DNA of 64,000 bases from Chitinophagaceae bacterium (GTDB lineage Bacteria > Bacteroidota > Bacteroidia > Chitinophagales > Chitinophagaceae). How positions within the stretch are numbered: position 1 is the stretch's first letter; each line of letters opens with the position of its first letter. The notes below the pieces were generated by a model. That model saw only the letters and a program-made list of their open reading frames with translations. It was not told the origin of the DNA and ran no database searches. Both the position numbers and the translations under genes were made by a program. The DNA is taken from contig JAHBTL010000037.1 in the NCBI GenBank assembly GCA_019638615.1, positions 1 through 64,000 of the forward strand. The letters are read 5' to 3'. Shown here one piece after another: positions 29,655 through 64,000 of this stretch.

Positions 29655-29701
29655 ATGTAAATAAAAGTAACAGCAATATGTTTTTGGTGAAATTACATTT
29701 G
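29655..29701 (+). promoter_or_regulatory. Promoter with shared upstream box (ATGTAAATAAAAGTA) and TACATTTG
   Basis: ATGTAAATAAAAGTA at 29655-29669 starts exactly 39 nt upstream of a TAnnTTTG box (TACATTTG, 29694-29701). The same 15-mer at the same distance precedes the SusC gene at 41434. No convincing -33 element is present, which would fit an activator-dependent promoter with the 15-mer as activator site. The predicted transcript start (about 29707) lies after the in-frame ATG at 29703, so RidA must start at 29742. Confidence 0.65.
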
Positions 29702-29741
29702 AATGCATAAATTACAATTATCCCAGCAATACGATAATACA

Positions 29742-30140
29742 ATGAAATCAAAGCAAAAAATTAAACACCCGCACCGGGATCCTTCATTCGTAACCGGTGC
29801 GTATTCCGATGCCGTAGTCATTAACGGCTTTGCATTTGTAAGCGGCCAGGCATCTGTTGATTTTACAACATCAGAATTTGTTTTAGGAAGTATTGAAGAA
29901 GAAACCCGCCGTACGCTTGATAATATACAGCTTATTTTGCAGGAAGCAGGAACTTCTATGGAACATGTAGTAAAATGTACGGTACACCTGGCTGATATTA
30001 ATGAGTTTGACAGGTACAATGCGGTATATTCGGAATATTTTCCGGGTATTAAGCCTGCCAGAACCACGGTTCAGTCTGTTTTGGCCGAAGGGATTAAAGT
30101 AGAAATTGATTGCATCGCATTTATTCCCGATCAACGGTAA
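29742..30140 (+). CDS. RidA-family (YjgF/UK114) enamine/imine deaminase
   Basis: From ATG 29742 the protein is 132 residues, the usual RidA length. It shows AYSDAVVINGFAFVSGQASVD near the start, EEETRRTLDNIQLILQEAG, and the C-terminal PARTTVQSVLAEGIKVEIDCIAFIP with the conserved R...P..G..IE.(D/E) arrangement. RidA proteins hydrolyse reactive enamine/imine products released by PLP enzymes, so it fits beside the class III aminotransferase two genes downstream. It is the first gene of a seven-gene plus-strand set; the next start is 5 nt after its stop. Transcription likely starts from the box at 29694. Cytoplasmic. Confidence 0.9.
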   Translation: MKSKQKIKHPHRDPSFVTGAYSDAVVINGFAFVSGQASVDFTTSEFVLGSIEEETRRTLDNIQLILQEAGTSMEHVVKCTVHLADINEFDRYNAVYSEYFPGIKPARTTVQSVLAEGIKVEIDCIAFIPDQR

Positions 30141-30145
30141 TCACA

Positions 30146-31135
30146 ATGAATGGAAAGATCAGCACACAAAATACCACAATAGGGATTGTTGGATTGGGGT
30201 TAATGGGTAGCAGCATTATCGCTTCTTTGCTGGCTTTGGGCCATCCTGTAAAAGCGATAGCGCCTATTCACGGTGAAAAGGAAGTAGGGTATAAACGTAT
30301 TCTCGAACAGTTGCATTTGTGCGAAAAATTTGATATTCTCCAGGCTCCGGTAGAGGAATACCTGTCGTTGCTAACGGTATCATCTGAGTATAGTGACCTG
30401 GGGGACTGCCACCTGGTAGTGGAATGTATCGTGGAGAATCTTGCGATTAAAGAAACTGTTTTTAAGAAGATCGCTGAAGTAACTTCAAAGCAAACAATAC
30501 TGGCAAGCAATACTTCGGCTATTCCTATCAGCATATTGCAAAAAACTGTTCCTGATCCGCAGCGGTTCATCGGCATTCACTGGGCGGAACCCGCGTTTGC
30601 TACCCGTTTCCTGGAGATCATATGTGGCAAAGAAACAGACGAAGAAACAACGGCCGCTGTATGTAAGCTTGCGTTAAGCTGGGGAAAGGAGCCTACGGTG
30701 CTGAGAAAGGATATACGGGGATTTATTACCAACCGGTTGATGTATGCAGTGTACCGGGAAATACTGCACCTGGTAGAAAAAGGCGACACCAGTTTTGCGG
30801 ATGCGGATAAGTGTTTTCGCTATGATGCCGGTTCATGGATGACGCTGATGGGTATTTTCAGACGTATGGATTATGAGGGATTGAAAGATTATCATACTGC
30901 ATACAAAAACATCTTTCCATTGCTTTCAAACAGCGATGGCATATCGCTGCAAATGCAGAAAATAGTGGATGCGCATTCAAGAGGTATACAAAATGGAAAA
31001 GGGTTTTATTCTTACACCCGGCAGGAAGCGCTGCAATGGTCGCAGGCTTTTTCAGCGTTTAATAAAGATATCTTTCATCTTGCGGCCAATTATCCCGAAC
31101 GGATAAACGAAACTTTGAATGGAACAAAACAATGA
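30146..31135 (+). CDS. 3-hydroxyacyl-CoA dehydrogenase-family NAD-dependent enzyme
   Basis: This protein of about 329 residues has an N-terminal Rossmann fold with GLGLMG (16-21), VVECIVENLAIK and the catalytic SNTSA loop (S124). The catalytic histidine (H145 in GIHWAEPA), E157 and N196 (RGFITNRL) are all present, as in active 3HCDH enzymes. The motif WAEPAFATRFLEII replaces the usual HFFNPV..M.LVE, pointing to a non-CoA substrate, as in L-gulonate dehydrogenase or lambda-crystallin relatives. It would oxidise a 3-hydroxy group using NAD. It is followed by a class III aminotransferase and then by a second, degenerate paralogue. ATG 30146 opens just before the Rossmann strand; earlier starts lie in RidA. 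Cytoplasmic. Confidence 0.88.
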   Translation: MNGKISTQNTTIGIVGLGLMGSSIIASLLALGHPVKAIAPIHGEKEVGYKRILEQLHLCEKFDILQAPVEEYLSLLTVSSEYSDLGDCHLVVECIVENLAIKETVFKKIAEVTSKQTILASNTSAIPISILQKTVPDPQRFIGIHWAEPAFATRFLEIICGKETDEETTAAVCKLALSWGKEPTVLRKDIRGFITNRLMYAVYREILHLVEKGDTSFADADKCFRYDAGSWMTLMGIFRRMDYEGLKDYHTAYKNIFPLLSNSDGISLQMQKIVDAHSRGIQNGKGFYSYTRQEALQWSQAFSAFNKDIFHLAANYPERINETLNGTKQ

Positions 31136-31145
31136 GAATAATGCC

Positions 31146-32450
31146 ATGAGTGAAATTCACTATACGGAATCCGCCAGACTGCTGGAAAGAGCAAAAAAAG
31201 TCCTGGCAGGCGGCGTTTCATCAGAATTCAGAAAATACAATCATCCGCATGCGCTTTTTTATACACATGGAAAAGGTAGCAGTATATACGATGCGGATGG
31301 AAATGAATACCTGGACTTTACATTGAGCCAGGGACCTTTGATCCTCGGGCACTCTCATCCCGAAGTAGTGAAAGCCATTGCGGATTATTCAAAAGACAGT
31401 CAGTTATATGCAGGCCAGCATATTAAGGAAGTTGAGCTGGCTGAAAAAATGAACGGTATTATCCCTTCTGCGGAATTAATGCGTTTTTGCCTGGATGGCT
31501 CTACGGCAGTACAAACAGCCTTCAGAATAGCACGGGCAAAAACCGGCAGGCAAAAGTTTGTGCGGTTTGAAGGGCATTACCACGGCTGGCTTGATAATGT
31601 GTGCTGGGGGAATGCGGCATCTTCCTTATCGGCTATGGGTGATCGTGAGCAGCCTGTAGCAAACCCCTGGTCTGCAGGCTTGTTTGCCGGTTCGGCTGAT
31701 GAGAGTATTGTATTGCCCTGGAATGATATGGCTCTGGTAGAAAAAACTGTCGTGCAGCGTCACTCCGAAATTGCGGCGATCATAACGGAGCCGGTAATGT
31801 GCAACAGCAATTGCATTTTACCTGAGCCAGGTTTTTTGCAGGGATTGAGGAATATCTGCGATCAATACAATATAGCGCTCATATTCGATGAGGTAATTAC
31901 CGGCTTCCGGTTAAGCCTTGGGGGCGCTCAAAAATATTTCGGTGTTACACCCGATATGTCTGTGTTTGCCAAAGCTATGGCAAGCGGCTATCCGATAAGC
32001 GCGGTGGTGGGCAAGCGTGAGTGGATGCGGTTGATGGAAGATGGTACCGTGATACATGCCGGAACAATGAATTCCGGCAATGCTACGGTAGCCGCCGCTT
32101 TGTCGACCATAGAAGTGCTGGAGCGGGAAAATCCTTACCAGCTCATGTTTGAACTGGGAAAATATTTTATGGAAGGATTAAAAAAAGCTGCTGCTGAAGC
32201 CGGACAAAACTTGCTGGTGCAGGGACCGGGCCCTATGTTTTGCATTGCTTTTACAGACGCAGGTAAAATAAAGGATTATCGCGATACCTTTAGTGCGGAT
32301 AAAGCTAAGCTGTCAAAATTTATAGCAGCTATGCATAACCGTAAGATAAGGATCATCGGAAGAGGGTTGATATATATCAGTGCTGTACATACCAAACCGG
32401 AAATAGACAGAGCTGTTGCTGTTGCCGGCGAGGTTTTAAGAGAATTATAA
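31146..32450 (+). CDS. Class III PLP aminotransferase, glutamate-1-semialdehyde-aminomutase-like
   Basis: About 434 residues from ATG 31146; an ATG at 31119 overlaps the previous stop by 17 nt and adds nine residues. The fold type I aminotransferase is complete: GGVSSEFRKY early, DGSTAVQTAFRIARAKTGR, GHYHGWLDN, LIFDEVITGFRL (PLP-ring aspartate) and the Schiff-base lysine in FAKAMASGYPISAVV (about K276). The HYHGWLDN and GGVSS segments place it near GSA aminomutase-like members rather than ornithine transaminases. There is no hemA or hem gene nearby, so a catabolic role is more likely than heme synthesis. It sits between two 3HCDH-family genes and downstream of RidA, which would clear enamine by-products. 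Confidence 0.9.
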   Translation: MSEIHYTESARLLERAKKVLAGGVSSEFRKYNHPHALFYTHGKGSSIYDADGNEYLDFTLSQGPLILGHSHPEVVKAIADYSKDSQLYAGQHIKEVELAEKMNGIIPSAELMRFCLDGSTAVQTAFRIARAKTGRQKFVRFEGHYHGWLDNVCWGNAASSLSAMGDREQPVANPWSAGLFAGSADESIVLPWNDMALVEKTVVQRHSEIAAIITEPVMCNSNCILPEPGFLQGLRNICDQYNIALIFDEVITGFRLSLGGAQKYFGVTPDMSVFAKAMASGYPISAVVGKREWMRLMEDGTVIHAGTMNSGNATVAAALSTIEVLERENPYQLMFELGKYFMEGLKKAAAEAGQNLLVQGPGPMFCIAFTDAGKIKDYRDTFSADKAKLSKFIAAMHNRKIRIIGRGLIYISAVHTKPEIDRAVAVAGEVLREL

Positions 32451-32462
32451 ATATCCAGTTGG

Positions 32463-33440
32463 ATGGAACATGTAATGTTTAAAAATATATTGATTACAGG
32501 GGGGGGGAGAATGGCCGCCGGTGTCGCGGTAAATTTTCTCCGATCGGGGGCTGTAGTGTATTTTGTTCCTGGTAATGCATCCCGGGATGAGGGCTTTATT
32601 AATAATATCATTGCTGATTGCCAATCCTGTGCGGATATGAGGATCAGCGCTACACATCTAAAATATATATCGTCTATAGCAGAAGCCGGGGAGGCAGATA
32701 TTGCTGTATGTATTACAGAAGAAGATATTGCATTAAAGCAGCAGTGGATTCAACAGCTTTGCAGCACGCTTGCCCCCGAGACTATAATAGGCGTCAATAC
32801 AGAAAGTTTTTCATTACAGGATATGCAGGCAAAAGCAAAAAATCCGGAAAGGGTAATTGGACTGAACTGGTGCGAGCCTGCCTATACCACTTATTTTTTG
32901 GAGGTCATTGCTAATGATATCACTCCGTCTTTTATAGTAGAGAACGTTGAGGTGGCCGCCTGCAATTGCTGGCACAAAGACCCTTATATTGCACATTGCG
33001 GCTATAGCGTAAAAGCGCGCCTGATGGCTGCGCTGGCACGTGAAGCATTTTATCTTGTAGAGCATGGCTATGCATCTGTTGAAGATATAGACAGGGCATG
33101 CAGGAACGATGCGGGATACTATTTACCTTTTGCCGGCAATTGCAGGTATATGGATCTGATGGGCACTTATGCGTATGGATTGGTAATGAAAGACCTGAAC
33201 CGGGAACTATCGAAAGCGGAGAAGCTGCCTTTGTTTTTTAATGAGCTGATCGCAGCCGGAAAAACAGGCATGGATAACCGGGAAGGCTTTTATACCTATG
33301 CGAAAGATGAAGTAAAGAACTGGGAGGAAAAATTCCGTGAATTCAGTTTTGAAATACGATCTGTTATTGATAAATACCCGTTTGAATATTTAAAAGAAAG
33401 AGCAGCTACCGTCAATTCAAAAATACCCCTGAATGAATAG
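32463..33440 (+). CDS. Degenerate 3-hydroxyacyl-CoA dehydrogenase paralogue lacking catalytic residues
   Basis: This 325-residue protein is clearly a paralogue of the dehydrogenase at 30146. Shared landmarks are PERVIGLNWCEPAYTTYFLEVIAND versus PQRFIGIHWAEPAFATRFLEIICGK, and the C-terminal GKTGMDNREGFYTYAKDE. The catalytic His is Asn135, the catalytic Ser position is Glu114 (VNTES), and the active-site Asn position is Ala185 (KARLM). Only the glutamate (E147) remains. The NAD motif is also changed (ITGGGRMAAG). It may be a pseudo-enzyme subunit of a heteromeric complex with the active paralogue, or it may catalyse a different reaction. Its stop overlaps the M19 start (ATGAATAG), so translation is coupled. 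The gene is otherwise intact, with no frameshift or stop. Confidence 0.8.
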   Translation: MEHVMFKNILITGGGRMAAGVAVNFLRSGAVVYFVPGNASRDEGFINNIIADCQSCADMRISATHLKYISSIAEAGEADIAVCITEEDIALKQQWIQQLCSTLAPETIIGVNTESFSLQDMQAKAKNPERVIGLNWCEPAYTTYFLEVIANDITPSFIVENVEVAACNCWHKDPYIAHCGYSVKARLMAALAREAFYLVEHGYASVEDIDRACRNDAGYYLPFAGNCRYMDLMGTYAYGLVMKDLNRELSKAEKLPLFFNELIAAGKTGMDNREGFYTYAKDEVKNWEEKFREFSFEIRSVIDKYPFEYLKERAATVNSKIPLNE

Positions 33441-34533
33441 GCATTTTATAGTGGATGCACATCTCGATCTGTCCATGAATGCAATTGAGTGGAACAGGGA
33501 TCTTACACGTCCGTTGAACGAGATACGGCAAAAAGAAATGCATTTAAAGGATAAAAACGACAGGGGAAAAGGAACGGTTTGCCTGCCTGAATTGCGTAAG
33601 GGCAGGATAGGGTTGGTGGTTGCCACACAATTGTCGAGGGTAAATCCTTTTGGCGCCGCGTTACCCGGCGCAAGCTGGAACTCGCCGCAGCAGGCATGGG
33701 CAATGACGCAGGCGCAGTTGGCATGGTATCGTGAAATGGAAGCATTGGGCGAAATGGTGCAGATCATCAGCCTGCAGCAATTGGATGTGCACCTCCGGTT
33801 GTGGAACGATGGATCTGTTCCGGATGATAAAAAGCCGGTAGGTTATATACTTAGTCTTGAAGGGGCTGATTCGCTGGTGGATATCTCTTACCTGCATAAA
33901 GCGTACGCGTATGGATTAAGAGCGGTTGGGCCGGCGCACTTCAGCAGCGGGCGGTATGCACCGGGAACAAAAATGGAAGGACCCCTTACACCCCTGGGAG
34001 TTGAACTGATAAAAGAAATGAGTAAGCTGAAGCTCATACTGGATGTTACGCACCTCACGGATGAAGGATTTATGCAGGTGATGGATCTGTATGACGGGCC
34101 TGTATGGGCAAGTCACCATAATGTAAGAAAAATAGTGCCTACCCAACGGCAACTAACAGATGAACAAATAAAATTGTTGATTGAAAGAGGTGCGGTAATA
34201 GGCGGTATGCTCGATTGCTGGGCGATGGACAACCGTTTTATTGATATGGTATCTGACCCCTGGCAATTGAATATACGCCTCGAAAACCTGGTAGATCATT
34301 GGGATCATATTTGCCAGATAGCAGGCAACAGTGAGCATATAGCGTTCGGCACCGACCTCGACGGTAACTTTGGCACAGAGCAATCACCCTGGGATATGAA
34401 TTCCATTGCTGATCTGCAGAAGTATCATGAAATACTGTTAAGAAGAGGATATAAAGAGGAAGATGTGGAAAATATTTTTTACAAAAACTGGATAAGGTTT
34501 TTGAGGAAAGCGTGGGGAAAGAGTGGTAAGTGA
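33433..34533 (+). CDS. Membrane dipeptidase-like zinc hydrolase (peptidase M19)
   Basis: This 366-residue TIM-barrel metallohydrolase has the M19 signature set: DAHLDLSM at the N-terminus (H10 and D12), LSLEGADSL (bridging glutamate), DVTHLTD and ASHHN (histidine ligands), and FGTDLDGNFG near the end. M19 enzymes hydrolyse dipeptides, often those with a C-terminal D-residue, and some act on other small amides. No signal peptide or lipobox is present, so it is cytoplasmic, unlike classical renal dipeptidase. It overlaps the preceding gene by 8 nt and belongs to the RidA operon, suggesting that an amide or peptide bond is broken in this pathway (inference). Confidence 0.93.
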   Translation: MNRHFIVDAHLDLSMNAIEWNRDLTRPLNEIRQKEMHLKDKNDRGKGTVCLPELRKGRIGLVVATQLSRVNPFGAALPGASWNSPQQAWAMTQAQLAWYREMEALGEMVQIISLQQLDVHLRLWNDGSVPDDKKPVGYILSLEGADSLVDISYLHKAYAYGLRAVGPAHFSSGRYAPGTKMEGPLTPLGVELIKEMSKLKLILDVTHLTDEGFMQVMDLYDGPVWASHHNVRKIVPTQRQLTDEQIKLLIERGAVIGGMLDCWAMDNRFIDMVSDPWQLNIRLENLVDHWDHICQIAGNSEHIAFGTDLDGNFGTEQSPWDMNSIADLQKYHEILLRRGYKEEDVENIFYKNWIRFLRKAWGKSGK

Positions 34534-34643: not shown

Positions 34644-36002
34644 ATGAATAATTTTTCCGCGGGCGCTGCCCAAACAGATATTACTCCGCCGCTGGGTACC
34701 ATCGTTAACGGTGAGTTTGTGGCTTTTTATGCGCATACCATTCACGATCTATTGTATTCAAAAGCATTGGTGCTGCAAAATGGCGGAACAACACTTGCCA
34801 TTGTGATTGTTGATATCTGTGCAATGGATAAAGAGTTTATTTCGGAAGTAAAAAAAGAAATAACGAAGCTTACCGGCATCCCTGCTGAAAATACATTAAT
34901 AGCTGCGACACATACTCACTATGCCGGTTCAATACTTGATCTTTTAGGTGGCCCCTGCGATTTACCCTACAGGAAAAGTCTTGGTAAGAAGATCGTACAA
35001 TCTGTAACAGAAGCTGTAAAAAAATTACAACCCGCAAAGATCGGCTTTGCCGCTGTGGACGTGCCGGAGCATGTGGTATGCAGGCGGTATTATATGAAGC
35101 CGGGTTATAAAGCTGTTAATCCTGTAACCGGTGAGTTGGATATTATTAAAACCAATCCTGCCGGTGGGGAAGCGTATATTGACAGGCGGGCGTCGGAAAT
35201 TGATCCTGAGCTTAGCGCTATTGCCATTCAATCCATATCGGGAGAATGGATCAGCCTGCTGGCAAATTATTCCATGCATTACGTGGGTGATTGTGCTAAC
35301 GGTACCATAACTGCAGATTATTTTGCAGTATTTGCAAGGCATATCACAGCTAATTTAAAAGCCGGTGAAAATTTTATTGCTATGCTCAGCAACGGCACCA
35401 GCGGAGAAGCGAACATCTGGGACTTTCTTCAGCCCGATCGTTATCCCAAAGAAGAGCATCAAAAGAAAGAATTGATAGGCAGGGATCTTGCAGAGAAATT
35501 ATATGAAGCTTTGAAGAACATTGAATGGCAAACAGATCCGTCCTTATCTGCATCATTCAAATATGTTACCCTTGGGGTGCGTAAACCTTCCGCTGCTGAA
35601 GTGGAAGCCGCCAAAAAGATCGTTACACAAACAGATTACCGTCTCATCCATCCCGATGCGGAGGCTATGCCGAAAATATATGCCAGGGAACAGGTATTTT
35701 TGAATGAATATCCTGATACGATTGAATTCCCGGTGCAGGCATTGAAAATAGGGGATATAATCATAGGCGCTTTGGGTGGAGAATTTTTTGCGGAAACGGG
35801 ACTGGCTTTAAAAGAAAAGATCGGTACAGGTAAGTATTTCACCATCACCATGGCAAACGGTTATATCGGTTACATACCTCCTGCACATGAAATTGAAAAG
35901 GGCGGATATGAAACCTGGCGGTGCAGGACCAGTCATGTTAAGGAGGATGGAGAGCACATTGTAAGAAATGAATTGTATGAAATGGCAGGAAGAAGACCGT
36001 AA
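34644..36002 (+). CDS. Neutral/alkaline ceramidase N-terminal-domain protein
   Basis: This 452-residue protein has the N-terminal catalytic domain of neutral/alkaline non-lysosomal ceramidases. It opens SAGAAQTDITPPLG, then gives IVIVDICAMDKEF, the metal-binding ATHTHYAGS, NYSMHYVGD and MLSNGTSGEANIWD, and ends with LGGEFFAETGLALKEK and ANGYIGYIPPAHEIEKGGYE. Full ceramidases have about 200 more residues including a C-terminal immunoglobulin-like domain, absent here. There is no signal peptide, so it is probably cytoplasmic. Its substrate is then unlikely to be membrane ceramide, and a small N-acyl amide is more plausible (inference). Its ATG is formed by the end of the intergenic repeat upstream. 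Confidence 0.88.
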   Translation: MNNFSAGAAQTDITPPLGTIVNGEFVAFYAHTIHDLLYSKALVLQNGGTTLAIVIVDICAMDKEFISEVKKEITKLTGIPAENTLIAATHTHYAGSILDLLGGPCDLPYRKSLGKKIVQSVTEAVKKLQPAKIGFAAVDVPEHVVCRRYYMKPGYKAVNPVTGELDIIKTNPAGGEAYIDRRASEIDPELSAIAIQSISGEWISLLANYSMHYVGDCANGTITADYFAVFARHITANLKAGENFIAMLSNGTSGEANIWDFLQPDRYPKEEHQKKELIGRDLAEKLYEALKNIEWQTDPSLSASFKYVTLGVRKPSAAEVEAAKKIVTQTDYRLIHPDAEAMPKIYAREQVFLNEYPDTIEFPVQALKIGDIIIGALGGEFFAETGLALKEKIGTGKYFTITMANGYIGYIPPAHEIEKGGYETWRCRTSHVKEDGEHIVRNELYEMAGRRP

Positions 36003-36147: not shown

Positions 36148-37776
36148 ATGATGAAGCTGTTATATAGTATTGCATTTTGCTGGCTGGTTACTTTGTCTGC
36201 TTGTAAAAGCCCTGTTGATCCGGTAACTGTAAAGCATCGCTTGATCCATAATAATGATGGTACCGAAATTTTGGGTAATAACTGGTTTGGTAAAAGACCA
36301 TTAACACTGGAGGACGTTAACCGCTATGTGGATATGATCGCGAATTCGCAGGTTACTACATTCATGATCTGCTCCGGAAGCGACTTTTTTTACTATCGCT
36401 CCAAATACGGCAGTATAATGGGAGATGATAAAAACGGTAAACTGGATTGTGGAAAAAACACAGCATTATATAATACGCTTCGCCGGTTTTATGAGAACGC
36501 CATAGTGCTGGATAAGCAGGGAACAGACATCATAGAAGCCACATTGAAAAGAGCCAAAGAAAAAAAACTGGAAGCTTTTATTACTTATCGCATGAATGAC
36601 CTGCATTTTGCAGATACCAGTGTGGGTTGCCCGCTACAGTACGGGGAATTTTGGAAAGAACATCCTCAGTACTGGACAAACGATACTACACTGAGTGGCT
36701 GGAATGCAAGGAGTGCGCTTGATTTTGCTCACCCGGAAGTACGGGAATATAAATTGAATATCATAAGAGAACAGCTTGAAAAGTATGGAACATTAACAGA
36801 TGGATATGAACTGGATTTCATGCGCTTTATCGTATACTTCAAAAAAGACAAAGCTGAAAAAAATGCACCGTTGATAACAGAACTGGTGCAGGCTGTAAAA
36901 AATATTGCAGATTCTGTTGGTAAGCTTCATAATAAAAAAATATTGCTGACAGCCAGGATCCCTGCAACCATGAGCGACTGCAAAAAGAAAGGATTGGATG
37001 TGCAGGAGTGGGTAAAGAGGGGCTTGCTTGATTTTGTTACTTTGGGTGTACACTGGCGTGGCGAACCGGCTATGCCGGTAGCGGAGTTTAAAAAACAATC
37101 GGGCTTCGAAATTCCGATATATGCGTCAATGGATGATGGTACGTATAACCCCCGCGAAATTTATTCGCACGGAATGTACAGAGGGATGGCATCTCATGCC
37201 ATGGCGCAGGGTGCCGGCGGAGCCTACCTTTTCAATTATTTTTTAACTGCCTATAACGAAGCCGGTCAAAAATTGCAGCCGGAAGAAGGTACTCTGGTGT
37301 GCCGTACGATTGCGCCGGAATTATTACTGGAACTTGGATCCCTGGAAACACTCAGGAAAAGGAACAAAGTTCATATGCTTTCTGACGGCGCTTCATCTTA
37401 TGATTTAACTCCCAATAGTCCACTGCCATTACCGGTACAGCAAAATACAGAGGCCGGTATCTTTGTAGGTGATGATGTGGGCAAGGAGCCACCACAGGAA
37501 GTGATCCTGTTTATACGGACCAACACAAAAGATTCCTTTTCAGTATCCATGAATGGTCACTCTTTGCAGCACACCAATGCTGATTATCCCGGGCTGTATG
37601 ATAAGTTGCGTGGTATAAACGATCAGCAAAAAGTTACCGCGTTCATTGTACCTGCAAATGTTATCATGCAGGGAAATAATAGAATTGTATTTTCTTCGCC
37701 GGCAAACAGGCTGATTGTACAACGGATCGAGCTTGCATTAAAATACGGTTCCGTGGAAGAGTGCGGGTATTTCTAA
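36148..37776 (+). CDS. Lipoprotein with glycoside-hydrolase-like TIM barrel, function unknown
   Basis: This 542-residue lipoprotein has lipobox TLSAC (Cys19). A barrel-like domain spans about 45-420. It includes DVNRYVDMIANSQVTTFMIC, ATLKRAKEKKLEAFITYRMNDLHF, HPEVREYKLNIIREQLEKYG, the acidic YELDFMRFI (candidate catalytic region), ILLTARIPATMSDC and GGAYLFNYFLTAYNEAG. The layout resembles the GHL10/DUF4015-type hydrolase-like barrels. A C-terminal beta-rich domain (about 440-535, VILFIRTNTKDSFSVSMNGHSL) looks like a carbohydrate-binding module. The reaction is unknown. It is the last gene of the RidA operon, separated by the TAAGAC spacer, and would face the periplasm or cell surface, probably feeding the cytoplasmic enzymes. 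Confidence 0.65.
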   Translation: MMKLLYSIAFCWLVTLSACKSPVDPVTVKHRLIHNNDGTEILGNNWFGKRPLTLEDVNRYVDMIANSQVTTFMICSGSDFFYYRSKYGSIMGDDKNGKLDCGKNTALYNTLRRFYENAIVLDKQGTDIIEATLKRAKEKKLEAFITYRMNDLHFADTSVGCPLQYGEFWKEHPQYWTNDTTLSGWNARSALDFAHPEVREYKLNIIREQLEKYGTLTDGYELDFMRFIVYFKKDKAEKNAPLITELVQAVKNIADSVGKLHNKKILLTARIPATMSDCKKKGLDVQEWVKRGLLDFVTLGVHWRGEPAMPVAEFKKQSGFEIPIYASMDDGTYNPREIYSHGMYRGMASHAMAQGAGGAYLFNYFLTAYNEAGQKLQPEEGTLVCRTIAPELLLELGSLETLRKRNKVHMLSDGASSYDLTPNSPLPLPVQQNTEAGIFVGDDVGKEPPQEVILFIRTNTKDSFSVSMNGHSLQHTNADYPGLYDKLRGINDQQKVTAFIVPANVIMQGNNRIVFSSPANRLIVQRIELALKYGSVEECGYF

Positions 37777-46294: not shown

Positions 46295-46321
46295 ATCTAT
46301 CTTAATAACTCAATTGGCAAT

Positions 46322-50837: not shown

Positions 50838-50859
50838 ATAACTTTAGTAAAGAGCGTTG

Positions 50860-51805: not shown

Positions 51806-52561
51806 ATGGATAAGCAATATTTGAAATCCCTTAAATCCTCTTTTGATAAAGACGGGTATGTATTTCTGCCGGGCTTTCTTTCATATGAAGAAGTGAAAAC
51901 ACTGAATGAAAATGTGCGCCGGTTCATTACAGAAAAAATATCATCCATGCCGGCTAATCACTTCTTTTACGAAGATAAAAACGATATTGCTACCCTGAAG
52001 CAAATGCAGGATCTTGAAAAGTATGATCCGTATTTTAAAACGCTGGCGGTAGACAGTAAGTTCGAAACCATCGCTAAGGCCTTGCTGGATGAAGCTGTTG
52101 TTTGTAAAACAGTGGAGTATTTTAATAAGCCGCCAAAAATAGGTAAAGCAACACCGCCTCACCAGGATGGTTACTATTTTATGCTTAAACCCCAGCAGGC
52201 AGTAACAATGTGGATAGCGCTGGAAAAAGTAGACGAAGAAAACGGCTGTGTAAAATATGTAAAGGGCTCCCATCTCAAAGGTATGCGCAAGCATGGACGC
52301 ACTACCACACTCGGTTTTTCACAACAGATCGTTGATTTCGGAACGCTGGAAGATATGAGAGATGAAGTCGCTTTTCCTGCTAAGCCAGGTGACCTGCTGG
52401 TGCATCACTCACTCACTATTCACAGGGCGGGCGCTAATACAACAGCCGACAGAACAAGAAAAGCGATGGGATTGATTTATTGGGGAGAATCGGCAAAAGA
52501 AGATAAGGAGGCAAAGGAAAGATACATGGAGCAGTTGGCAAAGGAAAGGGAAAAAGTGTAA
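51806..52561 (+). CDS. Phytanoyl-CoA dioxygenase (PhyH)-family Fe(II)/2-oxoglutarate enzyme
   Basis: This 251-residue jelly-roll dioxygenase has the facial triad HQD (H119 and D121 in TPPHQDGYYF) and H206 (LTIHRAGAN), with the 2-oxoglutarate-binding arginine soon after (ADRTRKAM). It also has the family motif WIALEKVDEENGCVKYVKGSH. Members hydroxylate lipids, small metabolites or amino-sugar-like compounds using O2, iron and 2-oxoglutarate. No signal peptide, so cytoplasmic. It sits between the DapA-like aldolase and the HEAT-like lipoprotein, so it could oxidise the same intermediate. An intergenic repeat block follows its stop. Confidence 0.93.
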   Translation: MDKQYLKSLKSSFDKDGYVFLPGFLSYEEVKTLNENVRRFITEKISSMPANHFFYEDKNDIATLKQMQDLEKYDPYFKTLAVDSKFETIAKALLDEAVVCKTVEYFNKPPKIGKATPPHQDGYYFMLKPQQAVTMWIALEKVDEENGCVKYVKGSHLKGMRKHGRTTTLGFSQQIVDFGTLEDMRDEVAFPAKPGDLLVHHSLTIHRAGANTTADRTRKAMGLIYWGESAKEDKEAKERYMEQLAKEREKV

Positions 52562-56098: not shown

Positions 56099-57478
56099 TT
56101 AAAGCTTACGGATTGTCACCGGCCGGCCGTAAGTATAACGTCCTTCCTTGTATCCCCACCAGCCCCAGTCGTATACCACAAATATTTTATTGTCTTCCTT
56201 CGTTTCTTCCACTGCCATATAGTGCGTGGTGGGAATGCCGGATGTTAGTTGTTGTACATTGCTCCATGTATCGCCTCCATCGCTGCTTACGGCAATATAA
56301 TTTCCGTTCCAGGGATGATCCGGTTTTTGCCAGCAGGCTTTCGCAGGTATACGTATACCAAAGGCTGCTACCAGCAACCCGCTGCGTAATACACAAAGGT
56401 CCGGATTTACCACAGCCCCGATGATTTCAATGGAGCTTTCTGCAACGGGGATCCCTCTTCGTTTTACATCCAGAAACATATCTCTCCATTTTTCAGCAGC
56501 ATATACATCCCGGTCTGCAAACTGGACGGGTTCCGGTTTGCTCCAGGTTTTTCCTTCGTTGTCGGAAAAGGCTTTAAACAACTCCCGGCCGGTACGCATA
56601 AAACAAATAAGCCTTCCGGCGTGTTTGCCTTTGCTTACACGATTCAGCACCGGTTCGCCAAAGCCCTCGGTTTGCGCCTGGGGCATAGCGGTAATACAGG
56701 ATACATATTTCCAGTGACGTCCTTTATTAGAAGAGCGAAATACCATTACCCTTGTTTTCATCATCCTCACTTCATAATCCGACGGGCTTTTATCTCCTTT
56801 CTGCCAACCGTAGATCGTGGTCATCAGATCGCCGTTTGGCAGTTCAATAATGCGGCGATGCAAACGCATGGCGATGTGCGGGCGGCCGCCATCATCGGAT
56901 GACGCATAAAAGTTTGCATTGGGTATGTCAAACGTAACCGTAACCGGGCCTTTAATAGTTTTCATATCGTCTGTAGAGTAAAATATGATTGTTTCACCGG
57001 TATCCGGTTTACTACCCGGTGTTACATAGGTTTCCATCCCCAGGATGGTTCCGTCTTTCAACTGCACGGCGCCACCCTCGATATTGATATCATTTTTACC
57101 GGGAAGGACGGAGATCTTTTTCCAGGTATCTCCCTTATCCCGGGATATCACCGTGTCCAATGCAGCCGGGTAATAAATACGCTCCTGTGGCAGCGGCTTA
57201 TTATGGTTTTGCATCTGTACCACAATGGTATCATTGCGGGTGATCAGCATGAAAGGCTGCAATCCGTCATCCATCACCATCCGCTCTTCTCCATACTCGA
57301 ACGCCAGCAGGTGATCGCTGAGCACGGTAAGAGGTGTATTGCGTGCTATTTGCCAGTGTTCCCTTTCCTGGTTTTGTTTACCCCTGAATAATGTTGAATT
57401 AACAAAGGGAATCCCGGCCATTACCATGCCGGTTTGCCGTAAAAACTTTCTTCGCGAGGGATGCTGATCCATTTTCAT
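56099..57478 (-). CDS. Tat-exported sialidase-superfamily hydrolase 5
   Basis: From ATG 57478 (or 57472) the protein has a twin-arginine leader (SRRKFLRQTG); the frame continues 16 codons upstream to 57526. The mature part has Asp boxes SRDKGDTW, SSNKGRHW, SDNEGKTW and SSDGGDTW and the closing blade KIFVVYDWGWWGYKEGRYTYG. The long middle section between boxes is larger than in the other four. The Tat leader is unusual for this family, where Sec export is normal, and suggests folding in the cytoplasm, perhaps with a metal. It lies on the opposite strand to the main operon and is convergent with the fusion gene. A fragment of a related gene lies just upstream. Confidence 0.85.
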   Translation of the reverse strand: MKMDQHPSRRKFLRQTGMVMAGIPFVNSTLFRGKQNQEREHWQIARNTPLTVLSDHLLAFEYGEERMVMDDGLQPFMLITRNDTIVVQMQNHNKPLPQERIYYPAALDTVISRDKGDTWKKISVLPGKNDINIEGGAVQLKDGTILGMETYVTPGSKPDTGETIIFYSTDDMKTIKGPVTVTFDIPNANFYASSDDGGRPHIAMRLHRRIIELPNGDLMTTIYGWQKGDKSPSDYEVRMMKTRVMVFRSSNKGRHWKYVSCITAMPQAQTEGFGEPVLNRVSKGKHAGRLICFMRTGRELFKAFSDNEGKTWSKPEPVQFADRDVYAAEKWRDMFLDVKRRGIPVAESSIEIIGAVVNPDLCVLRSGLLVAAFGIRIPAKACWQKPDHPWNGNYIAVSSDGGDTWSNVQQLTSGIPTTHYMAVEETKEDNKIFVVYDWGWWGYKEGRYTYGRPVTIRKL

Positions 57479-57586
57479 TGATTTTGTTCGTGTAAAAAGA
57501 TTTTTATAGCTGATATGCTCTGCCATACCCTGTTTTCCTATTCCCGCTTTATGCCGCTTTATTTGTCTCCGAGCTCTGTAAGCACA

Positions 57587-59467: not shown

Positions 59468-60733
59468 GTGAACCAGCAATCTGAACCGTCCATACGTAAA
59501 TCTTCCTTTTATCCATGGCTGGTGGTAGCTATGCTATGCGTTGTGGGTTGTTTGAATTATCTCGACAGGATGATGATCACTACTATGCGCAGCTCCATCC
59601 TGGAAGAAATACCAATGACAGATGCACAGTTCGGATTACTTACTTCTGTTTTTTTATGGGTGTATGGCTTTTTAAGTCCTGTTGCCGGTTTTATTGCCGA
59701 TAAGTTCAATAAAAGCAGGATCATTATTATCAGCTTATTGGTTTGGTCGGCGGTAACCTTTCTTACTGCATATGCCAGCAATTTCGAATATCTTCTTGTA
59801 ACAAGGGCTTTGATGGGGATCAGCGAAGCATTTTATATACCCACGGCGCTGGCGCTGATCATGGATTATCACAGGGGCAATACCAGGTCTTTTGCCAACA
59901 GTGTGCATATTATGGGTATTATGGTGGGACAAAGTCTTGGTTTTATAGGTGGCTGGCTGGCAGAAGCTCATTCATGGAACTTTGCCTTTAATGTATTAGG
60001 AGGTATTGGAATAATATATGCCGTTGTACTGATATTCGGTTTAAGAGATAACAAAGAACCCGCTCAAACAGAAACTTTAGTTGAAAAGACAGACCTGGGA
60101 GATAAGCCGAAATTTTTTACAGTGATCAGGTATTTGATGACCAACAAAAATTATCTGAAGACACTGTTTACCTGGAGCATGATCGGTATTGTAGGTTGGG
60201 TGATCGGCGGCTGGCTGCCAACCTTCTACAAAGAAAAGTTCAACCTGTCGCAAACCATGGCAGGCGTGTATGCCACAGGTTATTTTCATATAGCCTCTAT
60301 CATCGGGGTATTGGTTGGTGGTTTTTTAGCAGACAGGTGGAGCCGGACCAACAGCTATGCGAGGATATTGTTGCCGATGATCGGCTTGTGCATTGCTTCT
60401 CCTGCTATTTTTATTGCCGGGTATTCTTCTGTGCTGGTGGTAGCGGTGGCTTGTTTTATGCTGTACGCCTTTACCCGGATATTTTCAGATGGCAATATGA
60501 TGCCGATACTCTGCATGGTAGTGGATCAGAAATACAGGGCAACCGCTTACGGACTGCTGAACCTTTTTGCTACTGTAATTGGAGGGGTAGGCATATATGC
60601 AGGCGGATACCTCAGGGATATCAATATAGATCTTGGGTTGTTGTTCAGGATTGCCGCGTTCCTGCTGGCAACAGGCGCGCTGTCATTGTATTTGTTGAAA
60701 CGGTCGGTGAGTAAACAAAGCCTGGAAAAATGA
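59468..60733 (+). CDS. MFS transporter (organic-anion/sugar-acid type)
   Basis: This 421-residue transporter has 12 predicted transmembrane helices. The loop 2-3 MFS motif (GFIADKFNKSRIIIIS) and the mirrored loop 8-9 motif (GGFLADRWSRTNSYARI) are present. The first helix contains GCLNYLDRMMITTMRSSI, the NYLDR motif typical of the anion:cation symporter branch that moves hexuronates, galactonate and sialic-acid-like anions. The start is GTG 59468. It would import the small acidic product made in the periplasm. Downstream, in order, are an aldolase, an aldo/keto reductase, a Gfo/Idh oxidoreductase and an SDR, consistent with uptake and breakdown of a sugar acid. Confidence 0.92.
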   Translation: MNQQSEPSIRKSSFYPWLVVAMLCVVGCLNYLDRMMITTMRSSILEEIPMTDAQFGLLTSVFLWVYGFLSPVAGFIADKFNKSRIIIISLLVWSAVTFLTAYASNFEYLLVTRALMGISEAFYIPTALALIMDYHRGNTRSFANSVHIMGIMVGQSLGFIGGWLAEAHSWNFAFNVLGGIGIIYAVVLIFGLRDNKEPAQTETLVEKTDLGDKPKFFTVIRYLMTNKNYLKTLFTWSMIGIVGWVIGGWLPTFYKEKFNLSQTMAGVYATGYFHIASIIGVLVGGFLADRWSRTNSYARILLPMIGLCIASPAIFIAGYSSVLVVAVACFMLYAFTRIFSDGNMMPILCMVVDQKYRATAYGLLNLFATVIGGVGIYAGGYLRDINIDLGLLFRIAAFLLATGALSLYLLKRSVSKQSLEK

Positions 60734-60783
60734 TCATGACAGAGGCTTCAGGATATATTAATTTTGGAAGCAGTAGTTAGAAG

Positions 60784-60826
60784 CAAAAGCATATCAAATC
60801 TCAAATCAGAAATTTCAAATTTTTCT
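60784..60826. repeat. Short copy of the TCAAATCTCAAAT repeat before the aldolase gene
   Basis: ATCAAATCTCAAATCAG and AAATTTCAAATTTTTC lie between the MFS stop and the aldolase start. An in-frame start at 60764 would translate this repeat as an N-terminal extension, which is why I place the start at 60827. Confidence 0.6.
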
Positions 60827-61636
60827 ATGGAAATGCGTAAAAGCAGGGTACTAAAAAAACTTCGTGCTGGCGAGAACGTGAGTTGTATAAAAATTAACCT
60901 GGCAGATCCCCGGGTATGCGAAATGGCCGCGCTGGCGGGTTTTGATTGTGTATGGGCAGACCAGGAACATATCAGCCAGGATTGGTCGGCGCTTGAGGCT
61001 TCTGTTTGGGCAACAAAAGCGCATGATGCGGATCTGCTGGTAAGAGTTCCGAGAGGAGCCTATAATAATTATATCAAACCATTGGAACTGGATGCAACGG
61101 GTATTATGGTGCCGCATATACTCAGCCTTGCTGATGCTAAGGAAATAATATATCATACAAGATTTCATCCCGTAGGAAGAAGAGCGATAGACGGCGGAAA
61201 TGCTGATGGCGCATATACAGGCGTAGATTTTAATCAATATTTAAAGGAAGCCAACGAACAACGTTTTGTGGTGTTGCAGATCGAAGATCCGGAACCGCTG
61301 GATGAACTGGAAGCTATTGCCGCGTTACCCGGGTATGATATGTTGTTTTTTGGACCGGGCGATTTCAGCCAGGGAATAGGCGCTCCGGGAGTATGGGACC
61401 ACCCGCTATTGATTGAAACAAGAAAAAGAATTGCAGTGCTGGCAAAGCAATATGGGAAGTTTGCCGGAACGGTGGGAAGTCCTGCCAATTTGAAAGAACT
61501 GAATGCAATGGGTTACCAGTTTGTAAGCATAGGCGCCGATGTGGTGGGGTTGAAAAACTATTACGCTTCACTGCTGCAGGCGTTTGAAAATACCTCTCCG
61601 GCGACAGACAGCAGTTCCTATATTGAAAAGCAATAG
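60827..61636 (+). CDS. HpcH/HpaI-family class II aldolase
   Basis: This protein of about 269 residues starts from ATG 60827 (or 60833). The TIM barrel has AALAGFDCVWADQEH (H48, where IDxEH is usual), VRVPRGAYN (R73), QIEDPEPLDE (metal-binding E153) and FFGPGDFSQGIG (metal-binding D179). These are the divalent-metal and keto-acid sites of HpaI/GarL-type enzymes, which split 2-keto-3-deoxy or 4-hydroxy-2-keto acids to pyruvate and an aldehyde. Position directly after an MFS sugar-acid-type transporter supports a catabolic retro-aldol step. The aldo/keto reductase starts 3 nt after its stop, so the two are strongly linked. Cytoplasmic. Confidence 0.93.
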   Translation: MEMRKSRVLKKLRAGENVSCIKINLADPRVCEMAALAGFDCVWADQEHISQDWSALEASVWATKAHDADLLVRVPRGAYNNYIKPLELDATGIMVPHILSLADAKEIIYHTRFHPVGRRAIDGGNADGAYTGVDFNQYLKEANEQRFVVLQIEDPEPLDELEAIAALPGYDMLFFGPGDFSQGIGAPGVWDHPLLIETRKRIAVLAKQYGKFAGTVGSPANLKELNAMGYQFVSIGADVVGLKNYYASLLQAFENTSPATDSSSYIEKQ

Positions 61637-61639: not shown

Positions 61640-62593
61640 ATGCAAAAAAGATTTTTAGGAAATACGGGCATACAAGTTTCAGAAATTGCATTTGGGGGAG
61701 TGGAAATTGGATTGCCCTATGGTATAGGGGTGAATGGAAAAGAAGATATGATCGCTGAGGAAGATGCCATTGCGCTATTGCAGTTAGCCGTAGCAAAAGG
61801 GTTTAATTTTTTTGATACAGCCCGTATGTATGGTGTGAGTGAAAATATAATGGGGAAGGCGTTTAGGCATTGCCGTCAGGATCTCGTGCTCGCAACAAAA
61901 TGTCGCCATTTCAGGGATGCGGCAGGATTGCTTCCTTCTGATACAGAGATACGGAACCTGATCCATTTGTCGCTGAGAGAAAGCCTGCAGGCATTGCAAA
62001 CGGATTATATTGATGTGTATATGCTTCACCAGGCTGATATGGAGATACTGGACCGGCAGGTTATTGCTGATGAAATGTTGAGGTTTAAAAAATCCGGTGT
62101 GGTAAGAGCCATTGGGGTATCTACCTATACTATAGAAGAAACCCGGAAAGCCATTGAATCCGATACCTGGAACGTGATACAGCTCCCTTTTAACTTAATG
62201 GACCAGCGCCAGCAAACATTGTTTGAGCTTGCTGCAAAGAGCGGAGTGGGTATAGTAGTGCGGTCTGTTTTGCTGAAGGGCTTATTAAGTACCAGGGGAA
62301 CAGGCTTGCATCCGACACTTCAGCAGGTAGAGGAGCATATAAAAAAGTACAGCAGCCTGTTGCAAAATGGAGCATCTCTTCCTGAAACGGCAGTGAAGTT
62401 CGCGCTGTCTTTTCCGCAGGTTTCTTCCGTGCTGGTGGGCATAGATAAGGAGTCATACCTGCTGGAATCATTAAAAGCGGCGGATGGACATTATATGGAT
62501 AAAGATCGTTTACGGCAGGCGCGTTCGCTTGCCTATCCCGATCCGGCTTTTCTGAATTTGCCGCATTGGGATAAGATGGGGTGGCTGAGATGA
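61640..62593 (+). CDS. Aldo/keto reductase
   Basis: This 317-residue AKR has the catalytic tetrad D59 and Y64 (FFDTARMYG), K87 (LATKC) and H130 (MLHQAD), and the AKR ending SFPQVSSVLVGIDKESYL that positions NAD(P). It opens MQKRFLGNTGIQVSEIAFGG, a typical AKR first strand. It would reduce, or in catabolism oxidise, the aldehyde or hydroxyl product of the aldolase encoded 3 nt upstream. The repeat block 62594-62743 follows. Cytoplasmic. Confidence 0.94.
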   Translation: MQKRFLGNTGIQVSEIAFGGVEIGLPYGIGVNGKEDMIAEEDAIALLQLAVAKGFNFFDTARMYGVSENIMGKAFRHCRQDLVLATKCRHFRDAAGLLPSDTEIRNLIHLSLRESLQALQTDYIDVYMLHQADMEILDRQVIADEMLRFKKSGVVRAIGVSTYTIEETRKAIESDTWNVIQLPFNLMDQRQQTLFELAAKSGVGIVVRSVLLKGLLSTRGTGLHPTLQQVEEHIKKYSSLLQNGASLPETAVKFALSFPQVSSVLVGIDKESYLLESLKAADGHYMDKDRLRQARSLAYPDPAFLNLPHWDKMGWLR

Positions 62594-62743
62594 GACGATT
62601 TGAAATTACTATCGGCTATCAGCAGATCAAAACTATTAACTGCAAACAAGAAACTATAAACAGTAAACAACAAACCATAAAAGCAAACCACCTTGTGCAC
62701 CTTTGTGTTTCTGTGTCTTCGTGGTTCAAATCTCAAATTTCAA
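62594..62743. repeat. Intergenic repeat block joined to a start codon
   Basis: The block contains ACTATCGGCTATCAGC, AAACTATAAACAGTAAACAAC, CCTTTGTGTTTCTGTG and finally TTCAAATCTCAAATTTCAA fused to the ATG of the next gene. The last 23 nt through ATGA (62725-62747) are identical to 34625-34647. It breaks up an otherwise compact operon. Confidence 0.75.
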
Positions 62744-63664
62744 ATGATAAAAATTGGTATCATCGGAATGAGCGCGGGAAATGCGCATCCTTATTCATGG
62801 TCATCTATTATAAATGGTAAGTATAATGGGGCAGAGATTGCGTCTATAGGTTATCCGGGGGTAACCGCCTATCTTAATGCCAATAAAGATACGCTCGGTT
62901 TACCTGAAGCAAAAGTGACATATGTGTGGACACAGGACATCACTGTTTCCAAAAGCATTGCTGCTTCTTCGGGTATTGAAAATATAGCGGAAAGAGCGGA
63001 AGATATGATCGGTAACATAGATGCGGTTATACTTGCCCGTGATGATGCGGAATTTCATGTTGAAATGGCTAAACCGTTTATAGAAGCGGGTATACCCGTT
63101 TTTATTGATAAGCCTTTAGCCATTAAACAGGAAGACCTGGATTGGTTTGAAGACCAGCATGCCGCGGGAAATTTTATTATGTCATGCTCATCTATGCGTT
63201 ATGCCAATGAATGCCGGGTGGTTAAGCAGGATATTGCATCGCTTGGTAAACTGGAACTGGTAACCGCGGTGGGTAAAAAAGACTGGCTGAAGTATGGAGT
63301 TCACATGATCGAGGCGATGTTCGCGACGCTGGATGATCCAAAAGTAGCAACGGTACAGCATGTTGGCGAAAAGGGAAAGGATGTGGTTCACCTGACTTTT
63401 GAAAATGGCTTGCCTGCTACTATTCACCTGTTTATGGATATATCCGGTACCTTTCAAATAACTTTCTTCGGGCAGCAGGCCTGGAGGACGGCGGATATAA
63501 AAAATTCGTATTCCATGTTCCGCGATAATATTATAGAGTTTTTGCGGAGTGTGAAAGAAGGGAAATCCCGGTTGGATTTCAGCCTGACAAAAAATATCAT
63601 CAATACCGTGATCGCTGCAGAAACAAGCAGGCTTTCGGGTGGAAAGATCATTCATCTAAAATAG
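62744..63664 (+). CDS. Gfo/Idh/MocA-family oxidoreductase (cytoplasmic)
   Basis: From ATG 62744 the protein is 306 residues with an N-terminal Rossmann fold (IKIGIIGMSAGNAHPYSW, a modified glycine motif). The family EKP is replaced by DKP (FIDKPLA). A shortened C-terminal domain follows, with VGKKDWLKYGVHMIEAMFA. No Tat signal, unlike the homologue at 17457, so it is cytoplasmic. It would oxidise or reduce a sugar-like intermediate with NAD(P). Its start codon is contributed by the intergenic repeat. The SDR gene starts 6 nt downstream, so the two are probably consecutive pathway steps. Confidence 0.87.
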   Translation: MIKIGIIGMSAGNAHPYSWSSIINGKYNGAEIASIGYPGVTAYLNANKDTLGLPEAKVTYVWTQDITVSKSIAASSGIENIAERAEDMIGNIDAVILARDDAEFHVEMAKPFIEAGIPVFIDKPLAIKQEDLDWFEDQHAAGNFIMSCSSMRYANECRVVKQDIASLGKLELVTAVGKKDWLKYGVHMIEAMFATLDDPKVATVQHVGEKGKDVVHLTFENGLPATIHLFMDISGTFQITFFGQQAWRTADIKNSYSMFRDNIIEFLRSVKEGKSRLDFSLTKNIINTVIAAETSRLSGGKIIHLK

Positions 63665-63670
63665 TTACGC

Positions 63671-64000
63671 ATGAACGTAATGCAATTGTTTAGCTTAAAG
63701 AATAAAGTAGTGCTGGTTACAGGAGGCGCAGGCAATTATGGTCGTTCTATAACGGAAGGTTTGGGTGAAGCGGGTGCTACAGTGGTCATCGCTTCCCGTA
63801 AGATGGAGGCCATAGAAAAGACTGTGGCGGATTTCCGCGCAACGGGATTGGATGTGCACGGTATGCAGGTGGACCAGGCGGATACCGGATCGGTAGTATC
63901 CCTGAAAGAACATATTCAGAAAAAATTCGGAAAGCTCGATGTCTTTATTAACAATGCTGTATCGCGACCCATGAAGGGATACAACGCACCTATAGAGCAG
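63671..64000 (+). CDS. Short-chain dehydrogenase/reductase, N-terminal part
   Basis: Only the first 110 residues are present; the frame runs off the right edge. It begins MNVMQLFSLKNKVVLVTGG with the SDR cofactor motif TGGAGNYGRS, IASRK (cofactor-specifying loop), VDQAD and the INNAV strand. Position 6 nt after the Gfo/Idh gene places it in the MFS-aldolase-reductase operon. Together these encode oxidation and reduction steps on one substrate. The catalytic YxxxK lies outside the window, so activity cannot be checked. Confidence 0.9.
   Translation, partial: MNVMQLFSLKNKVVLVTGGAGNYGRSITEGLGEAGATVVIASRKMEAIEKTVADFRATGLDVHGMQVDQADTGSVVSLKEHIQKKFGKLDVFINNAVSRPMKGYNAPIEQ

Follow-up and report, generated by a model that had tools for sequence, protein, structure and literature searches.

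A conserved Bacteroidota gene block that probably takes up and degrades a nitrogen-rich, sialic-acid-like sugar

What kind of compound would a bacterium take up and degrade with sialidase-fold proteins, a SusC/SusD-type importer, two aminotransferases and a set of oxidoreductases, and with none of the usual sialic acid enzymes? The question is raised by a 64,000-nucleotide stretch of Chitinophagaceae bacterium DNA (assembly GCA_019638615.1, contig JAHBTL010000037.1, positions 1 to 64,000; hereafter the window), in which a preliminary description had singled out two operons as a candidate system of uptake and catabolism not described before, a label that the literature search leaves standing. 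The gene block is probably one conserved uptake and catabolic system for an unusual nitrogen-rich, sialic-acid-like sugar, working without the usual sialic acid enzymes. Its best explanation, which we put forward tentatively and at a little under an even chance, is the non-phosphorylative breakdown of an amino sugar acid of the nonulosonic-acid type, with a substrate and an order of steps that we infer. What is observed is the gene content, the synteny across Bacteroidota families, the kinship of the enzymes and their catalytic motifs.

Gene order and conservation of the two operons

Gene identities were assigned from open reading frame calls and Pfam/NCBIfam scans, whereas secretion and signal peptides were judged by eye. 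Nearly all of the inventory given earlier was confirmed (SusC/SusD, an MFS transporter, two aldolase types, RidA, M19, a ceramidase-domain protein, PhyH and oxidoreductases), including the two class III aminotransferases, one resembling glutamate-1-semialdehyde aminomutase (GSAM) at 31119-32450 and the other, fused to an amidohydrolase, at 53724-56048. Operon 1 (29703-36002) runs RidA, HCDH1, GSAM1, HCDH2, M19 and CerAlk, successive genes overlapping or lying apart by no more than 110 bp. Operon 2 (41434-56048) runs SusC2, SusD2, four propellers (BNR1 to BNR4), a DapA/NanA-superfamily aldolase, PhyH, a HEAT lipoprotein and the fusion, so that SusC and SusD genes adjoin each other in the company of degradative enzymes, as in a SusC/SusD-type utilisation locus. 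After the fusion come a reverse-strand propeller, a PDDEXK_2 transposase-like gene and then the MFS, HpcH, aldo/keto reductase (AKR) and GFO genes. The span first proposed, 29655..64000, proved too short: on the same contig the cluster goes on past 64000 with a short-chain dehydrogenase (SDR), a propeller of family c0, a zinc alcohol dehydrogenase (ADH) and another SDR, to about 67904. The genes on which the argument turns are the following.

29703..30140, + strand: RidA-type enamine/imine deaminase, first gene of operon 1 (PF01042, E 1.9e-30; in genus clusters)
30110..31135, + strand: HCDH1, 3-hydroxyacyl-dehydrogenase-like NAD enzyme (PF02737/PF00725; closest solved relative 4om8)
31119..32450, + strand: GSAM1, GSAM-like class III pyridoxal phosphate (PLP) enzyme (PF00202; PLP lysine present in alignment; closest solved relatives GSAM)
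32463..33440, + strand: HCDH2, second, more divergent 3-hydroxyacyl-dehydrogenase-like enzyme (PF02737/PF00725; synteny)
33433..34533, + strand: M19 metallo-dipeptidase family protein (PF01244, E 6.4e-49)
34644..36002, + strand: CerAlk, single-domain ceramidase-N-type hydrolase (PF04734 above cut-off)
41434..44739, + strand: SusC2, SusC-type TonB-dependent transporter (6/7 genus clusters)
44758..46233, + strand: SusD2, SusD-type binding lipoprotein (6/7 genus clusters)
48554..49750, + strand: BNR3, core sialidase-fold protein (BNR_2; 7/7 genus clusters)
51806..52561, + strand: PhyH-type dioxygenase (PF05721; 7/7 genus clusters)
52743..53720, + strand: HEAT-repeat lipoprotein (PF13646)
53724..56048, + strand: Amidohydrolase_2::class III aminotransferase fusion (Pfam; aminotransferase domain kin to pseudaminic-type operons)
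59468..60733, + strand: MFS transporter (PF07690; nearest NCBIfam model D-galactonate transporter, under cut-off)
60764..61636, + strand: HpcH/HpaI class II pyruvate aldolase (PF03328; 7/7 genus clusters)
61640..62593, + strand: AKR (PF00248)
62693..63664, + strand: GFO/IDH/MocA oxidoreductase (PF01408)
63671..64000, + strand: start of an SDR (full gene 63671-64450, the contig continuing beyond the window)

Within the genus, the fusion occurs in 8 of 12 species, the seven others being 67-80% identical and one cut by a contig end. The regions of the seven relatives were fetched and set against the window, and they have a single gene block in common, which in two of them is split or truncated at contig ends; seven clusters are resolvable, the window included. 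HCDH1, HCDH2, M19, CerAlk, BNR3, PhyH, HEAT, the fusion, HpcH, AKR, GFO, the first SDR and the c0 propeller are found in all seven. GSAM1 is in six (the copy of G249 lies on a separate contig, in a different cluster type), as is RidA, whose copy in G028 was seen by tblastn only. The eighth species, G245, is represented by two contig fragments, one carrying RidA to M19 and the other the fusion, an SSF symporter and part of HpcH. The DapA/NanA-type aldolase together with BNR1, BNR2 and BNR4 is limited to three of the seven (G000, the window's own 7.18-Mb genome, with G246 and G244). Both aldolases and all five propellers had been counted as parts of the system; HpcH/HpaI and BNR3 keep that place, while the DapA/NanA-like aldolase and four of the five propellers, the last of them (BNR5) seen only here, are accessory.

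Beyond the genus, a sample of 395 genomes of the phylum was searched, with at most four candidates scored per genome in a loose first look; searches with different queries are treated as one sample because their count and handles agree. CerAlk (E<=1e-60) was found in four of these genomes and GSAM1 (E<=1e-140) in five, all four among the five, an overlap with a chance of 4e-7 when the window's own genome is excluded and genomes are taken as independent. In the three genomes with CerAlk other than the window's own (G004, G406 and G611), HCDH1, GSAM1, M19 and CerAlk share one neighbourhood.

A second set comprised the best 80 of 584 GSAM1 relatives that lie on named genome contigs. Since all 80 were chosen by GSAM1, its presence there is no evidence, and since each locus reaches at most 10 kb to either side, an operon-2 gene unseen in it is not thereby missing from the genome. 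The five-gene core of operon 1 (HCDH1, GSAM1, HCDH2, M19 and CerAlk) is complete in 21 of the 80 loci, in Dyadobacter, Runella, Rhabdobacter, Spirosoma, Larkinella, Chitinophaga, Parapedobacter, Sphingobacterium, Membranihabitans and others; one of the 21, L074, may belong to the window's genus (GSAM1, M19 and CerAlk 82-89% identical). The M19 protein is 79, 74 and 58% identical to its counterparts in three other genera. HpcH or GFO is present in 11 of the 80, namely in 10 of the 21 core loci against one of the 59 others (L136); HCDH2, M19 and CerAlk accompany all 11, and HCDH1 accompanies 10. The genes of both operons form one same-strand run in Runella (L082, L083) and Dyadobacter (e.g., L094), that of L083 reading BNR3-PhyH-SDR19-HEAT-HpcH-AKR-GFO-SDR13-RidA-HCDH1-GSAM1-HCDH2-M19-CerAlk-DTA with no intervening open reading frames of at least 110 residues. 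The co-occurrence sought as a check on the preliminary description, whose absence was to count against it, was thus found in the genus block, Runella and Dyadobacter. Given this co-occurrence and the Runella run, the window's two operons are best read as one system, and there is good support for a single conserved system. DTA, a D-serine-dehydratase/D-threonine-aldolase-type PLP enzyme (PF14031), is a frequent extra of the core loci (8 of 21) and was not found among the window genes scanned.

The importers vary among relatives, where SSF symporters replace or join the MFS protein. Six Cyclobacteriaceae loci (L105, L110, L113, L116, L118 and L120) encode a HEAT homologue and an SSF symporter as one fused protein; the homologue is 31-37% identical to the HEAT protein of the window across 308-326 columns, and in L118 the SSF part occupies residues 364-773 of 838. 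On the strength of this fusion, the HEAT protein is probably a partner of the inner membrane importer.

The fused aminotransferase and the core propeller

A clue to the substrate comes from the fusion, whose aminotransferase half shares 43-46% of its residues with class III aminotransferases of Pseudosulfitobacter, Halorussus and two further genomes, G202 and G217. The Pseudosulfitobacter gene lies in the pseudaminic-acid operon of pSMR1-1 (pseB, pseC, AKR, GNAT, the aminotransferase, pseG and pseI), that of Halorussus in a cluster with an N-acetylneuraminate-synthase-family gene, and those of G202 and G217 beside homologues of PseB, PseC and PseI. In a tree of 54 rows, with domain ends trimmed by BLAST ranges and some rows duplicated, eight fusion sequences and the four pseudaminic-type aminotransferases form a single 100/100 clade apart from GSAM1. 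A close match to the aminotransferase domain occurs in 14 of the 395 phylum genomes: in the window, in a second fusion (G406), and in 12 that carry it alone or fused to a cytidylyltransferase. The neighbourhoods of these 12 (L177-L188) hold an SpsF-type cytidylyltransferase in 12 cases, a PseI-like gene in 11, an AKR in 11, PseC in 10 and PseB in nine. From these counts it follows that the class III aminotransferase without an amidohydrolase is a regular member of Bacteroidota pseudaminic-type operons, often fused to the SpsF-type cytidylyltransferase.

We know of no role assigned to the class III aminotransferase of such operons. An 8-aminotransferase role is plausible, because the O-antigen of Flexibacter maritimus contains an 8-amino-3,5,7,8,9-pentadeoxynonulosonic acid with N-acyl groups (PMC3210612). 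Pseudaminic acid is known to be epimerised at C8 by a cytidylyltransferase-AKR protein together with an oxidoreductase, EpaA/EpaB (PMC12053666).

The fusion itself is not biosynthetic, since the NeuB/PseI family (PF03102) was not found in the window's genome or in seven of the eight fusion-bearing genus genomes, G249 having one. Its amidohydrolase half keeps D28, H30, H32, H170, H202 and D255 in 11 of 11 sequences, residues that we take to fit the metal site of the Amidohydro_2 family; its closest solved relatives are unspecific.

As for release of the sugar, BNR3 has the beta-propeller fold of a sialidase. Tyr364 and Glu262 are invariant in 13 of 13 sequences and align with the catalytic pair of four FRIP-bearing BNR_2 proteins, and two arginine positions of the sialidase triad are kept (Arg278, Arg354); D91 is likewise invariant in all 13, its alignment with the sialidase acid/base aspartate being uncertain. 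The alignment combined the four loci that passed a motif filter, out of 30 fetched, with eight of the 13 BNR3 rows. Judged by its residues, the core propeller is not an ordinary sialidase. One genome, G406, carries four copies of BNR3 (L234-L237).

The five propellers had been described as intact sialidase-fold proteins. BNR_2 recognises three of them (46292-47422, 48554-49750 and 56099-57526), BNR2 and BNR4 give no relevant Pfam match even at E<=1, and a FRIP-like motif at the N-terminal blade was found in none of the five; the reading of all five as sialidases is rejected on account of the two that lack such a match. The c0 propeller gives only weak matches to PDB profiles (best E 0.029), and its model, of low confidence (pLDDT 68.3), retrieves with Foldseek only five-bladed folds of the GH32/43/117/130 type at low TM-scores. 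The accessory propellers, the accessory aldolase and two genes that follow operon 1 are these.

36148..37776, + strand: secreted protein (by eye) with a weak GHL10 match under cut-off (family c20, 5 genus clusters)
38846..41143, + strand: secreted (by eye) 765-residue protein, possible glycosidase (3 genus clusters)
46292..47422, + strand: BNR1, accessory propeller (PF13088; 3/7 genus clusters; also L105)
47494..48531, + strand: BNR2, accessory, paralogue of BNR4 (no Pfam match)
49779..50837, + strand: BNR4, accessory, paralogue of BNR2 (no Pfam match)
50857..51795, + strand: accessory DapA/NanA-superfamily aldolase (PF00701; Lys and Tyr motifs present)
56099..57526, - strand: BNR5, Tat-type propeller (BNR_2; only this genome among the genus clusters compared)

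The 765-residue protein gave no relevant match in Pfam or in PDB profile searches; its homologues are in L074 (81%) and in L093 and L095 (41-42%). Directly upstream of operon 1 lies a group of ECF sigma, FecR, SusC1 and SusD1 genes (22854-29556) that falls outside the clusters of the relatives, and further upstream a DUF3500 gene on the reverse strand (20881-21885). The PDDEXK_2 transposase-like gene (58349-59317) breaks the block; a relative stands at the same spot in G246 and elsewhere in the cluster of G249.

Proposed route and rival explanations

A route can be envisioned in which secreted BNR3, c0-type proteins and other secreted proteins would release a sugar acid from a bacterial-type glycan; SusC2/SusD2 would carry it across the outer membrane, and the MFS or SSF symporter with the HEAT lipoprotein across the inner one. 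The removal of N-acyl or amide groups might then fall to CerAlk, M19 and the fused amidohydrolase. For CerAlk, no signal peptide was seen by eye; only its N-terminal Pfam domain is above cut-off (21.2 vs 1200 bits for the full-length neutral ceramidase model NF041649), and its sole plausible solved relative is the neutral ceramidase 4wgk, a weak match. The aminotransferase of the fusion would exchange an amino and a keto group, GSAM1 and RidA would provide a second PLP-dependent deamination in which RidA clears enamines, and HCDH1/2, AKR, GFO, the SDRs and the ADH would supply the redox steps. HpcH/HpaI, with the DapA/NanA-type enzyme in some strains, could finally cleave a 3-deoxy-2-keto acid to give pyruvate. 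By the same reasoning, oxidation of the remaining C6 fragment would yield an N-acyl-alpha-amino-beta-hydroxy acid suited to M19, D-threonine-aldolase-type and 3-hydroxyacid dehydrogenase chemistry. On this scheme the substrate class is most likely a nonulosonic acid or a close relative with extra amino groups, the fusion perhaps widening the range to include an amino variant, for instance the 8-amino forms. Independent support for the amino-substituted, N-acylated sugar acid proposed in the preliminary description comes from the relationship between the fused aminotransferase and pseudaminic-type operons; the reaction order stays conjectural.

Several observations weigh against a nonulosonic acid. 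The first, FRIP arginine position of BNR3 is Ser, Ala or Thr in 13 of 13 sequences, BNR3 was not detected (E<=1e-80) in eight of 29 GSAM1-cluster genomes, and its orthologue Dfer_1899 of Dyadobacter fermentans (70% identical) has a structure, 5hx0, titled as of unknown function. Kinship alone does not settle what the aminotransferase acts on. Long-branch warnings accompany the tree, in which the fork that joins the pseudaminic-type aminotransferases with the Cyclobacteriaceae fusions, at 94/82, is under the star threshold of the tool. In two of the 11 PseI-like matches the identity is no more than 34-35%, and the L186 neighbourhood holds just the cytidylyltransferase and a distant PseB-like gene. 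Among the 29 genomes the fusion is present in only six, inside the GSAM1 locus (L105, L110, L118, L120, L126) or at its edge (L115), so the nonulosonate clue does not span the whole cluster family. GSAM1 itself has no special kinship to nonulosonate clusters in the tree and identity comparison, and it occurs without CerAlk in G070 (E<=1e-60). It also keeps other company, with M81/MlrC in 18 of the 80 named loci and, in other cluster types (L084, L093, L104, L078, L130), with M81/MlrC, PALP, SMP-30 lactonase, DapA-type aldolase and UxuA-, RraA- or threonine-synthase-like genes. Because of the scarcity of the fusion, the missing kinship of GSAM1 and its other contexts, the substrate assignment is a lead with moderate support. 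No clear hint of a pathway came from the plasmid neighbourhoods of Aureimonas, Agrobacterium and Devosia. On the haloarchaeal plasmids L160 and L161 a ceramidase-N-type gene stands next to or close to genes for a class III aminotransferase, DegT and GFO, joined on L160 by PIG-L and sulfatases; this may be a related amino-sugar route of archaea.

A single system might instead act on another N-acylated amino sugar acid (e.g., a 2-amino-2-deoxy-aldonate or the amide of a uronic acid with amino acids) and have recruited a pseudaminic-type aminotransferase for a look-alike substrate, a real possibility though on balance improbable. The fusion is missing from 23 of the 29 searched cluster genomes, GSAM1 is elsewhere accompanied by UxuA, RraA and M81 genes, and M19, the DTA-type enzyme, the HCDH pair and RidA would suit beta-hydroxy-alpha-amino acids; this leaves unexplained, however, why the core propeller mostly keeps a sialidase catalytic set and why the fusion's aminotransferase groups with enzymes of pse operons. 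If the window instead held two neighbouring but unrelated loci, with operon 1 serving a compound that resembles an amino acid and operon 2 a glycan, the 1069-bp gap between the GHL10-like gene and the 765-residue gene (before 38846), the transposase-like gene at 58349 and the several loci that have operon 1 with no labelled operon-2 tail genes within 10 kb would follow naturally, but genus-wide contiguity and the single Runella run disfavour it and make it very unlikely.

Canonical use of N-acetylneuraminic acid (Neu5Ac) by divergent enzymes, suggested by SusCD, the sialidase-fold proteins and a NanA-superfamily aldolase, seems the most improbable of all. The earlier remark that no nanE, nanK or nagB is visible holds: the whole genome has one NanE match (PF04131), at 21.1 bits under a cut-off of 27, and NanK-type and NagB Pfam models matched none of the region's scanned proteins, no genome-wide search having been made for these two. 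The closest solved relatives of the DapA/NanA-type aldolase are N-acetylneuraminate lyases, yet it scores 24.6 bits against a nanA cut-off of 382, and it is confined to three of the seven genus clusters. The standard sialic acid route is therefore rejected on NanE, the non-conserved aldolase and the missing FRIP arginine. There is similarly only a slight chance that the locus makes or remodels the cell's own surface sugars: the clade of the fused aminotransferase does include enzymes of biosynthetic operons, but SusC/SusD, secreted hydrolase-like proteins, aldolases and importers do not fit, and a biosynthetic role is rejected for want of NeuB in the genome.

The catabolism of a nonulosonic-acid-type sugar could be stated in a bolder form, which we think unlikely, as the first catabolic route for pseudaminic-type nonulosonic acids, N-acylated 8-amino forms included, with release by a modified sialidase fold, SusCD import, the fusion handling the extra amino group, and a class II aldolase with oxidative deamination in place of NanA-NanK-NanE-NagB. 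Pseudaminic, legionaminic and related acids occur on the flagella, capsules and O-antigens of many bacteria. If this bolder form were true, the spread across Bacteroidota would point to a general scavenging route for bacterial surface nonulosonates. A conserved locus with candidate enzymes makes the question of nonulosonate catabolism testable; it would assign a function to 5hx0, an orphan structure, and offer a lead on the class III aminotransferase that has no assigned role in pse-type operons, and it might yield enzymes for the removal or analysis of pseudaminic/legionaminic-type sugars.

Comparison with known systems

Among the full-text matches listed, judged by titles and the starts of abstracts and with most subscription journals outside the coverage, no description of this gene set or of pseudaminic/legionaminic acid catabolism was found, and the same full-text search found no paper naming Dfer_1899 or 5hx0. 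Compared with GH33 sialidases and the pseudaminidase structure 2w38 of P. aeruginosa, BNR3 has the propeller fold, the Tyr, the Glu and two Arg, whereas the first Arg is replaced. GSAM1 best matches GSAM structures but falls under the NCBIfam cut-offs for that enzyme (354.7 vs 398 and 339.2 vs 527.3) and stands in a catabolic context. The likeness to the pseudaminic-type operons of Pseudosulfitobacter and Halorussus is that of the shared aminotransferase clade; there the domain is often fused to or next to a cytidylyltransferase and biosynthetic, while here it is fused to an amidohydrolase, in a catabolic-type cluster of a genome without NeuB. In Legionella sg6, a gene annotated as GSAM is listed next to PseG and to an acylneuraminate cytidylyltransferase (PMC3694923). 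To the sialic acid operons of Bacteroidota (NanO/NanU of Tannerella; PMC3969230) the window is alike in SusC/SusD-type import, sialidase-fold proteins and, in some strains, a NanA-superfamily aldolase. It differs in that NanE is not above cut-off and the universal aldolase of the genus is HpcH/HpaI, and it adds aminotransferases, RidA, the HCDH pair, M19 and ceramidase-like enzymes.

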